30,793 nucleotides of DNA from a virus: IMG/VR virus record IMGVR_UViG_3300032293_000941, positions 1 to 30,793 of that record. One strand, written 5' to 3'. This document shows positions 14,485 through 24,387 of the stretch, piece by piece. Made by a program: the position numbers and the translations under genes. The notes beneath the pieces were generated by a model. That model saw nothing but the letters and a program-made list of their open reading frames with translations. It did no database searches and had not been told where the DNA came from. Positions within the stretch are counted from its first letter, which is position 1. Each line of letters opens with the position of its first letter.

Positions 14485-14501
14485 TCGGCAGTTACAATGT
14501 C
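14464..14501. repeat. Inverted repeat centred on a CTAG that holds both convergent stop codons
   Basis: GACATTGT at 14464-14471 is mirrored by ACAATGTC at 14494-14501. The shared CTAG (14481-14484) lies between the arms and provides TAG on each strand. The arms are the matching GDIV codons of the two paralogous genes. There is no T-run, so this is not a standard intrinsic terminator, though the RNA could form a hairpin with a 22-base loop on either transcript. Confidence 0.8.
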
Positions 14502-14687
14502 GCCCGCTCCGGGGGGTAAATGGTACTCAAGGCCGAGACTGTCAGCCCCTTGACGATGGGTGCCATTTTCTGCCGGCCAATACCAAGCCCCATTTGGCGT
14601 AACGATGCGTCGCAGAGCACGGTGCTTTGATTTTGCAAGCAGCGCACTGATTTGCGCGGGCGTGGGGTTTTTAACTGCATCTTTCAT
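14481..14687 (-). CDS. Small NPTPA-domain protein, paralogue of the converging gene
   Basis: A 68-residue protein from ATG 14687; an in-frame TTG at 14723 is less likely. Its sequence NPTPAQISALLAKSKHRALR, RIVTPNGAWYWPAEN, DSLGLEYH and GDIVTAD follows, in the same order, the C-terminal domain of the protein encoded at 13969-14484 on the other strand. By eye about 40% of aligned positions are identical. It therefore carries the domain alone, without the Pro-rich N-terminal part. It overlaps the HTH gene upstream by 17 bases and is the last gene of the leftward set driven by P1. It could modulate or compete with the rightward paralogue, but this is speculation. Confidence 0.75.
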   Translation of the reverse strand: MKDAVKNPTPAQISALLAKSKHRALRRIVTPNGAWYWPAENGTHRQGADSLGLEYHLPPGAGDIVTAD

Positions 14688-14886
14688 CTGGTTTCCATCC
14701 TGACGAGAGGGCTTCAAGTGCAACTGAAGCCGGGCCGCTGATCGGCGTAGACCCGGTTTCCCAGTTCCGTATCGTGCGCTTGCCGTTTATGTCTGGATTA
14801 GCAAGCCGCAACGCTGCCGCTAGTCCAGACTGCGTTAGTCCGAGCTGGCGGCGTGCTGCCCGAATAGCGTCCGGCGTCATTGCCAT
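14671..14886 (-). CDS. HTH transcriptional regulator (XRE-like), copy 1
   Basis: A 71-residue DNA-binding protein from ATG 14886, which shares one base with the upstream TGA. The helix-turn-helix spans about 4-45: PDAIRAARRQLGLTQSGLAA, then GKRTIRNWETGSTPISGPAS as recognition helix and wing region. A closing helix, VALEALSSGWKP, follows. This is the short single-domain XRE type seen in phage repressors and in YiaG-like regulators. It is about 58% identical by eye to the second HTH gene at 15755-15982. It is encoded downstream of promoter P1, whose spacer holds a palindrome, so autoregulation is an obvious possibility but is not shown. Confidence 0.85.
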   Translation of the reverse strand: MAMTPDAIRAARRQLGLTQSGLAAALRLANPDINGKRTIRNWETGSTPISGPASVALEALSSGWKPDERCS

Positions 14887-15161
14887 CACAGTTCGTTGTA
14901 ACTACGCGTGACGTAACCGGCGACGGGCAAAGCGCGGACGGCCTCATAGTCGTCCGCCATGTAGTCGATGCCGGTGTCGTCGGCATAGACGACGTAGTGA
15001 TCCTCGCCACCGTAGATCACGCTGCGGCCAGCATCCTCGTAGGAGAGGCCGTGCGTACCGATGCTTTCGTCGATAAGGCGGCATGCATCCGTGATGGTGT
15101 CGGCGATGGTGGTGCCCCAGACGAGGCCGCTGTTGCTCTCGATGATGGTGTAAGTTGTCAT
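14886..15161 (-). CDS. Small acidic protein of unknown function, first gene after P1
   Basis: A 91-residue protein with many acidic and aromatic residues (ESNSGLVWGTTIADTITDAC, SVIYGGEDHYVVYADDTGID, YMADDYEAVRAL). It has no TM helix and no known motif. A GGGAG ribosome site lies about 10 bases before the ATG, inside one of the repeated hairpin/start cassettes. It is the first gene of a three-gene leftward unit (this gene, HTH, NPTPA protein). Negative charge and small size are common among phage anti-host proteins, but nothing specific supports that here. Confidence 0.75.
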   Translation of the reverse strand: MTTYTIIESNSGLVWGTTIADTITDACRLIDESIGTHGLSYEDAGRSVIYGGEDHYVVYADDTGIDYMADDYEAVRALPVAGYVTRSYNEL

Positions 15162-15181: not shown

Positions 15182-15194
15182 GGGGCGCTGCCCC
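15182..15194 (-). repeat. Start-associated GC hairpin, copy A
   Basis: On the leftward strand GGGGC-AGC-GCCCC followed by ACCA lies 21-33 bases upstream of the ATG at 15161. A GGGAGAC ribosome site follows it. The stem has five G-C pairs and a three-base loop, with no T-run. It is one of five near-identical copies (others at 15474, 15712, 18563 and 18802). Confidence 0.85.
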
Positions 15195-15209: not shown

Positions 15210-15238
15210 TTTATAGGGGAAATCTTTTCCCCCGTCAA
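15210..15238 (-). promoter_or_regulatory. Promoter P1 (leftward) with palindromic operator in the spacer
   Basis: The leftward strand reads TTGACG (15238-15233), a 17-base spacer, and TATAAA (15215-15210), close to the sigma-70 consensus. The spacer itself (15216-15232) is a palindrome, GGGGAAA-AGA-TTTCCCC, with perfect 7-base arms. A repressor bound there would sit between the -35 and -10 boxes. The transcript would carry hairpin A in its leader and then three genes, one of them an HTH protein. Confidence 0.78.
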
Positions 15239-15736: not shown

Positions 15737-15765
15737 CTTATGGGGCCGTTTGTCCTAAACGTCAA
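15737..15765 (-). promoter_or_regulatory. Promoter P2 (leftward), near-copy of P3
   Basis: The leftward strand reads TTGACG (15765-15760), 17 bases, then CATAAG (15742-15737). The stretch from CTGTTGA through TTTAGGAC to GGCCCCATAA matches P3 at 27 of 31 positions. The -35 box and TTTAG lie at the very end of the HTH coding sequence (its stop is the TAG). The -10 is embedded in CCCCATAAGGGG, a small palindrome. It would express the genes at 15495-15689 and 15283-15453. Confidence 0.7.
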
Positions 15766-15982
15766 CAGCTAAATTACCCGGCCTCCAGCCGGTGAGCAGC
15801 GCCTCAATTGCCACGGATGCCGGGCCGCTGATCTCGCGATCGCCTGCCTCCCAGCGGCGCACAGAACGCTTGCCGTCGCCGCCCATGCGCAGCAGGACTG
15901 CCAGCTCATGCTGCGTCAACCCCAGTGCCCGGCGGGCGTCACGGACTTCGTTCGGGCTCATCGCCCGCAACTCTTGTGTCAT
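15755..15982 (-). CDS. HTH transcriptional regulator (XRE-like), copy 2
   Basis: A 75-residue DNA-binding protein. I choose ATG 15982 because AAGGAA lies at ribosome-site distance; in-frame GTGs at 16009 and 16015 would add 9-11 residues and also overlap the upstream stop. Core: MSPNEVRDARRALGLTQHEL (first helices), GKRSVRRWEAGDREISGPAS (recognition region), VAIEALLTGWRPGN (last helix). It is a clear paralogue of the HTH at 14671-14886. The end of the gene contains the -35 region of P2, so it sits directly before a promoter it may control. Confidence 0.85.
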   Translation of the reverse strand: MTQELRAMSPNEVRDARRALGLTQHELAVLLRMGGDGKRSVRRWEAGDREISGPASVAIEALLTGWRPGNLAVDV

Positions 15983-16005
15983 GTTGTATTCCTTGTTGTC
16001 GATGG

Positions 16006-16545
16006 TCACTCGCACGACCAGATTTCGCTGGAGCGCTTAAGCTGCGGCCAGCCCTGATCGACGGTGAATGACCGCTCCTCAAACAGGAGATTGTTTGTCG
16101 GCACGATGGTCAGCCGATCGCGGTTGGTGCGGATGAACATGAACTCTTTGCTTTGGCTGGGCTCATGCGTGAATGCATCACCCTGCGGCACCGCCGTGAA
16201 CAGATACTCGCCGGCCTCTCCGCCCTTCACCTTCACCCGTAGTCCGTCCAGATAATCATAGATGAGCAGCGAGAAGTCCCTGCCGTAGCAATCCCAGATC
16301 TGCGCTTGCGGCAGCGTCCAGTCGGTGCATGCCGGATCGGCGCTGAAGCTGATGGCGTGGGGTGGCAGACCACGATAGAATGCACCACTGCACTCCAGAA
16401 TGACGTGACAACCCCACGCGCGACCTGGGTGGCTATGCAAACCAAACCACACGGCCGCCTCCCAGCCGGTGGCACCCTCGCGGATGAACGATCGATCAAC
16501 CCAGACGTAGTAGTGGCGCGGCAGGGACGCGCTGGAACTACTCAT
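16006..16545 (-). CDS. Unrecognised 179-residue protein
   Basis: The largest product of the accessory block. It starts with an ATGA overlap. It is rich in aromatic and beta-prone segments: HYYVWVDRSFIREGATGWEA, AVWFGLHSHPGRAWGCHVIL, FYRGLPPHAISFS, LLIYDYLDGLRVKVKGGEAG, FTVDQGWPQLKRSSEIWSCE. This suggests a compact beta or alpha/beta fold. There is no TM helix, no Walker motif and no clear metal site. I do not recognise the family. Being the only mid-sized protein among very small accessory genes, it is a reasonable candidate for a host-interaction or anti-defence role, but that is inference from context only. Confidence 0.75.
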   Translation of the reverse strand: MSSSSASLPRHYYVWVDRSFIREGATGWEAAVWFGLHSHPGRAWGCHVILECSGAFYRGLPPHAISFSADPACTDWTLPQAQIWDCYGRDFSLLIYDYLDGLRVKVKGGEAGEYLFTAVPQGDAFTHEPSQSKEFMFIRTNRDRLTIVPTNNLLFEERSFTVDQGWPQLKRSSEIWSCE

Positions 16546-19028: not shown

Positions 19029-19057
19029 GTTATGGGGCCATTCGTCCTAAAGATCAA
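19029..19057 (-). promoter_or_regulatory. Promoter P3 (leftward) of the accessory operon
   Basis: The leftward strand reads TTGATC (19057-19052), 17 bases, then CATAAC (19034-19029). The spacer TTTAGGAC-AA-GGCC is shared with P2, and the later ACCAACCGG is also shared. P3 lies in the 76-base gap (19005-19080) between the VRR-NUC gene and the first accessory gene; the rest of that gap shows nothing else. Confidence 0.68.
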
Positions 19058-24141: not shown

Positions 24142-24171
24142 CTTTACAGCGCGTGTGGTGTGGTTGTAAAG
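24142..24171. promoter_or_regulatory. Self-symmetric divergent promoter and operator
   Basis: CTTTACA (24142-24148) and TGTAAAG (24165-24171) are perfect inverted arms 16 bases apart. Read either way this is TTTACA-16-TGTAAA, a sigma-70-like -35/-10 pair, so the same two boxes could serve both strands. It lies between the leftward Sak4 gene (start 24086) and the rightward HTH gene (start 24205). The inverted arms also fit a dimeric repressor site. Other bases of the 24087-24204 gap show only the two ribosome sites and a short GTCGG repeat. Confidence 0.68.
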
Positions 24172-24204
24172 CCTGAATTGTGGAAAAATCAAAAAGGAAC
24201 GCTG

Positions 24205-24387
24205 ATGCTCAATCTGGAACAACTGCGAACGGCACTTGAGGATCGGAATCTTGAAAAGGTGTCGCAGCGCACCGGCATCCACCGCAACACGGTTGCTGCG
24301 ATCCGCAACGGCGCGAACGCCAATCCGACATATGCGACGATGAAGGCTTTGTCTGACTATCTGACTGCGGCGACAGTCGATGGTTGA
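24205..24387 (+). CDS. Small HTH regulator (Cro-like)
   Basis: A 60-residue DNA-binding protein from ATG 24205 with AAGGAAC upstream; a GTG-initiated extension to 24160 overlaps the promoter. Core: LEQLRTALEDRNLEKVSQRT as the first helices, GIHRNTVAAIRNGANANPTY as recognition helix and turn, then a closing helix (MKALSDYLTAAT). This short family is common in phage control regions. Being the first rightward gene after the symmetric promoter, it probably controls that promoter and so the switch between the two early operons. It overlaps the primase gene by 8 bases. Confidence 0.87.
   Translation: MLNLEQLRTALEDRNLEKVSQRTGIHRNTVAAIRNGANANPTYATMKALSDYLTAATVDG

Follow-up and report, generated by a model that had tools for sequence, protein, structure and literature searches.

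Aca10, from the acrIC7-acrIC6-aca10 operon of Pseudomonas citronellolis, is a small, dimeric, XRE-type HTH protein encoded by the last gene of a short operon. It binds the minimal operator ATACGCTCATTGAGCGTAT on its own promoter (PMC9410881), and each of ten published Aca-type promoter sets has an inverted repeat within the core promoter and is repressed by the cognate Aca (PMC9410906). Aca3 of Neisseria, an HTH_3 protein of about 70 amino acids, represses its operon, and autoregulation is known from the literature for the antitoxins MqsA and HigA2.

Here we analyzed a 30,793-base viral record (the window, meaning the whole stretch of DNA), whose terminase shares 62% identity with the terminases of the Caulobacter phages KcrB, RLK, GB2A and RW; no DNA similarity to named phages was found. 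The window contains a promoter, P1, with a palindromic spacer, followed by genes for an acidic 91 amino acid protein and a small HTH protein (HTH-A). With a probability of roughly 75%, we consider P1 to be the autorepressed promoter of an accessory module formed by these two genes and working like an acr-aca operon, in which HTH-A would bind the spacer and repress its own transcription.

The P1 promoter and its transcription unit

P1 lies on the minus strand from 15238 to 15210 and reads TTGACG-GGGGAAAAGATTTCCCC-TATAAA, with the -35 box (15233..15238) and the -10 box (15210..15215) both read from the sequence. The palindrome GGGGAAA-AGA-TTTCCCC (15216..15232), two 7-base arms of 100% complementarity flanking 3 bases, exactly fills the 17-bp spacer, as the original prediction had described. 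This 17-mer is unique in the window at up to 3 mismatches, its own one-base shifts aside. Perfect 7+3+7 palindromes occur in the window at the chance rate (3 observed vs 2.7 expected), so that the P1 palindrome alone is unremarkable, and we discarded it as evidence by itself. The P1 spacer is the most palindromic of the 87 promoter-like sites that a loose definition yields in the window, and a promoter plus palindrome of P1 quality upstream of HTH-A has p = 0.007, the floor of a test with 150 shuffles. The P1 dyad is located 9 nt from the -10 box, the distance being 7 nt in most of the other promoters that we collected (see below), a difference that speaks against the operator reading.

Downstream of P1, the minus strand encodes a leader palindrome (GGGGCAGCGCCCC, 15182..15194), a ribosome-binding site, the 91 amino acid ORF (14886..15161) and HTH-A (14671..14889), in this order. 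The stop codon of the 91 amino acid ORF overlaps the HTH-A start (TGATG), and HTH-A is followed by a 62 amino acid ORF (14492..14680, minus strand) which matches no family and may be the final gene of the unit. That the unit encodes a short HTH protein had been predicted correctly, except that its gene comes second, after the 91 amino acid ORF, in a unit of at least two genes. HTH-A (XRE/HTH_3, phrog_14076; 72, 71 or 69 amino acids depending on the start) is the predicted autorepressor of P1.

The 91 amino acid protein has a net charge of -12. It was found in no named phage; searches of Pfam and NCBIfam assigned it to no family, and PHROG gave nothing meaningful. Its top fold match was AcrIE2, at noise level (Z 3.8 vs 3.7 for transthyretin); we did not accept this match given the tie with transthyretin, a Foldseek rmsd of 14 Å and poor quality in three of the five models. 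We regard the protein as a candidate that probably acts in anti-defence or in host takeover.

The leader palindrome also precedes other genes of the region. The element consists of GGGGCANYGCCCC (or its complement) with ACCA...GGGAGA, and its 13-bp copies at window positions 15182, 15474, 15712, 18563 and 18802 precede five small genes; it is also present in about 20 related contigs. The two arms vary in concert in distant relatives (GGGCTCAGCCC, GGGCCAGTGGCCC, GGGTCAGTGACCC), and this co-variation suggests that the element is an RNA hairpin. The start-associated sequences reportedly carried by cluster K mycobacteriophages offer a comparison.

The only clear HTH-A orthologue that we found is encoded in a contig of 7,029 bp (L015) and is 98% identical to HTH-A over 65 residues. 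P1 falls within a 98-bp block that is identical in this contig, vs 93% identity in the adjacent coding region; as this is the single true orthologous site, conservation of the exact P1 sequence rests on one pair. Five other contigs (L020, L022, L023, L030 and L036) have the HTH-A paralogue HTH-B with the promoters P2/P3 and lack HTH-A and the P1 palindrome, and in four of them (all except L023) the segment after a 56 amino acid gene was read and contains neither P1 nor HTH-A. Two more (L017 and L018) have the 91 amino acid gene with no HTH relative and no palindrome in those records; as the related contig records may be fragments, all of these absences are provisional. At about 113-135 of L015, the HTH-A frame runs into the last residues (DATPWNF) of the 56 amino acid gene product, a junction that is likely a recombination scar at the module edge. 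Taking into account this scar and the presence patterns of HTH-A and the 91 amino acid gene across these contigs, P1, the 91 amino acid gene and HTH-A appear to behave as an inserted accessory module.

Spacer palindromes and recognition helices among HTH-A relatives

For HTH relatives taken from viral contigs and from one genome collection, we scanned the upstream regions. Many distant relatives of HTH-A have an operon promoter whose spacer carries a palindrome of different sequence and almost the same position: ATAGGCCCAGTGGGCCTAT in L004/L051; GGCCCAATGGGCC in L063-L066 and L069; CGGACA(N3)TGTCC(G/T) in L057, L012/L067 and L061; and TAGGGC(N5)GCCCT(A/T) in L052, L058 and L062. When 26 upstream regions were scored blind against dinucleotide shuffles, 11 had p<0.05 and the combined p was 2e-7, the loci being not fully independent since a few are interrelated, vs p = 0.88, 0.18 and 0.91 for three control regions of the same loci (downstream and both opposite strands). 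A hand-collected list of 23 promoters illustrates the layout, with the statistics carried by the blind test: 20, P2 and P3 among them, have GG at -6/-5, CC at +5/+6 and an odd dyad whose distance upstream of the -10 box is 6-9 nt.

The original prediction proposed checking whether the palindrome is kept in relatives with the same HTH, and took its loss from such relatives as evidence against an HTH-A operator. The outcome is divided: the palindrome is retained in the identical block of L015, but L040-L042, the closest relatives after L015 (62-65% identical to HTH-A), keep the HTH with a similar promoter that has no spacer palindrome and for which no operator was found, and in part they represent that contrary case.

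In L006, L008 and L010, the HTH genes of the family are preceded by a DNA methyltransferase-like gene or by other small genes. The HTH unit promoters of L006 and L010 read TTGCAT...CCCCATGAG, and upstream of the unit both have a perfect palindrome, TATTCCTTAAGGAATA, within a repeat-rich GGCCCCTA region (L006 109-136, L010 4641-4668).

The class of operator corresponds to the recognition helix of the linked HTH. The RKWE helix class is paired with the operator GGCCCANTGGGCC with its GGCCC half-sites, the GER..RRWE class with CGGACA(N3)TGTCC, the G(K/G)RAVRRWE helix of L052, L058 and L062 with the TAGGGC operator listed above, and the RNWE helix of HTH-A with the GGGGAAA half-site. L048 and L050 have G(K/R)RAVRRWE, nearly the TAGGGC-class helix, yet their sites are imperfect and of the GGCCC type. 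Operators predicted from the helix were found in three of four cases (L065, L066 and L061); the fourth failed, as the CGGACA operator expected from the helix class of L081 (Sphingomonas sp. CFBP 13720) was not found there. This locus has two copies of GGGCCAATGGCCC ahead of the HTH gene, at -368 and -982. L069 combines the RKWE lysine with a GGCCC operator and sits outside the RKWE clade (support 98/97), on a long branch of unsure placement, which suggests that the lysine/GGCCC pairing arose twice, apparently by convergence. Part of the helix-operator matching is shared descent.

A dimeric repressor encoded in the P1 unit and acting at the spacer, as originally proposed, is the reading best supported by the family palindromes, the blind test, L015 and the Aca10-like fold described below, with binding as its predicted step. 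P1 would be an early promoter of the sigma-70 type, with its spacer serving as the operator of HTH-A, the product of the second gene downstream. Upon infection P1 would be active at once; HTH-A, having accumulated, would settle as a dimer on the palindrome between the -35 and -10 boxes and exclude RNA polymerase from P1, and this shut-off would produce an early pulse of the 91 amino acid protein.

Competing readings of the P1 palindrome and a possible second circuit

The palindrome could also be the operator of another protein, namely HTH-B, a Cro-like protein encoded at 24160-24387, or a host regulator. HTH-B (15755..16015, minus strand, phrog_14076) is a paralogue 55% identical to HTH-A, and the third helices of the two are similar (GKRTIRNWE in HTH-A, GKRSVRRWE in HTH-B). 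The Cro-like protein (phrog_18104), located at the divergent start of the rightward genes, is a further HTH_3 protein of the window, and a profile comparison found it unrelated to HTH-A. Against this reading, relatives that carry HTH-B but not HTH-A have no P1 palindrome, the HTH-B-linked promoters P2 and P3 hold a different site, and within the family a different linked HTH goes with a different operator; we consider it unlikely.

P2 (TTGACG-TTTAGGACAAACGGCCC-CATAAG, 15737..15765, minus strand) overlaps the 3' end of HTH-B, and P3 (TTGATC-TTTAGGACGAATGGCCC-CATAAC, 19029..19057, minus strand) heads the unit that has HTH-B as its last gene; HTH-B is the predicted regulator of both. Their spacers contain an imperfect palindrome, TTTAGGAC-RAAY-GGCCC, at nearly the same place as in P1 and with GG at -6/-5 and CC at +5/+6 relative to the dyad; the palindromes of P2/P3, L005b and L050 are individually non-significant (p 0.25-0.63) and were placed by the GG/CC positions only. 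The original prediction had set the P1 circuit apart from P2/P3, a distinction that the related design of these spacers does not bear out: HTH-B, together with P3 and P2, seems to form another circuit that is related to that of P1 and HTH-A, follows the same design and has an address of its own. In related contigs the first-gene slots are hypervariable, with 7 different genes behind P3-type promoters (19057) and 4 behind P2-type promoters (15765); we infer that these slots resemble accessory or anti-defence slots.

The palindrome would be a chance feature of a strong promoter if HTH-A acted elsewhere or on nothing nearby. The chance rate of 7+3+7 palindromes in the window and the missing palindromes of L040-L042 and L081 are consistent with this, but the position within the promoter, the blind family test with its clean controls and the helix-operator match make it improbable.

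We assign the same low standing to a toxin-antitoxin pair, in which HTH-A would be the antitoxin and the 91 amino acid protein the toxin, autoregulated through the P1 palindrome in the manner of MqsA/HigA; this reading shares its operator with the one we prefer and differs in the cargo. HTH-A and HTH-B match PF01381 (HTH_3) with 24.1 and 24.8 bits, above the Pfam cut-off of 23. The HTH-A model (pLDDT 94.7) has HigA2 (Z 10.1), Aca10 (Z 9.5; 1.1 Å over 54 residues), MqsA (Z 8.8) and Aca2 among its best fold matches, and 29 of 29 HTH members match the MqsA family model (NCBIfam TIGR03830), with 21-22 bits vs a cut-off of 61.8. The MqsA-model matches and the HigA2 fold match favour this reading; against it, the scores are below the family cut-off, no zinc domain is present, and HTH-A consists of the DNA-binding domain alone, with no part for binding a toxin. 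The 91 amino acid protein, for its part, matched no toxin family and occurs in L017 and L018 with no HTH relative present.

Finally, a hairpin, acting as a terminator of P2 read-through or as an RNA/DNA structural element, is very improbable, given that a 7-bp stem with a 3-base loop is possible in P2 read-through RNA but a T-run downstream is absent on both strands (for which we dropped the terminator), the palindrome is not in the terminator-scan list, and homologous sites have 1-5 central bases at a constant place relative to the -10 box, as for a protein site.

Comparison with known autorepressors

Cro/CI-type repressors such as 434 and P22 c2 share with HTH-A the HTH_3 fold and promoter-overlapping operators, predicted in the case of HTH-A; they differ in that HTH-A has a single local site in the window, in place of a switch with several operators, and no CI-like C-terminal domain. 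The DNA-binding domains of MqsA and HigA2 also have the HTH-A fold, whereas HTH-A lacks a zinc or toxin-binding domain and a recognised toxin.

The solved Aca members were searched with both paralogues and with the family profile. HTH-B gave a weak match to Aca10 (7xi5, E 0.003) and an E of 0.49 to Aca3, and the family profile matched Aca3 (9vt3) with E 3.5e-7; HTH-A alone gave no match to these structures. Aca3 is similar to HTH-A in size and domain, and no II-C acr gene was seen beside HTH-A. HTH-A resembles Aca10 as a small XRE-type HTH protein with a palindromic, odd-dyad operator on its own promoter, the HTH-A side being predicted. The two are about 26% identical, their operators differ in letters, and no known acr gene lies alongside HTH-A. 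Residues R34, Q37, Q38 and R44 of Aca10 align with R35, R38, N39 and T45 of HTH-A, in a register taken via the alignment of HTH-A with HTH-B, so that the critical Arg44 is not kept. The L004/L051 palindrome and the Aca10 operator are both odd 9+1+9 dyads with 7 of 9 half-site positions equal.

We withhold Aca membership because no acr gene is known in the P1 unit. Tentatively, phrog_14076 and its relatives may form, in phages of this kind, a large, unrecognised family of Aca-like autorepressors that guard interchangeable early accessory genes for new anti-defence proteins, the 91 amino acid protein being one of them, with a readable helix/operator code. A small phage regulator family is tied here to predicted operators in about 20 loci, and its natural helix/operator variation makes the recognition code testable. 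If the acr-aca parallel holds, a spacer palindrome with an HTH gene would be a search handle for anti-defence genes in relatives of Caulobacter phages. Fold alone shows no function, and the parallel is built on three features together: the fold, an inverted repeat inside the core promoter (in P1 and family-wide), and a small HTH gene that closes, or nearly closes, a short phage operon made up of small genes, as in the operons of known Aca proteins.
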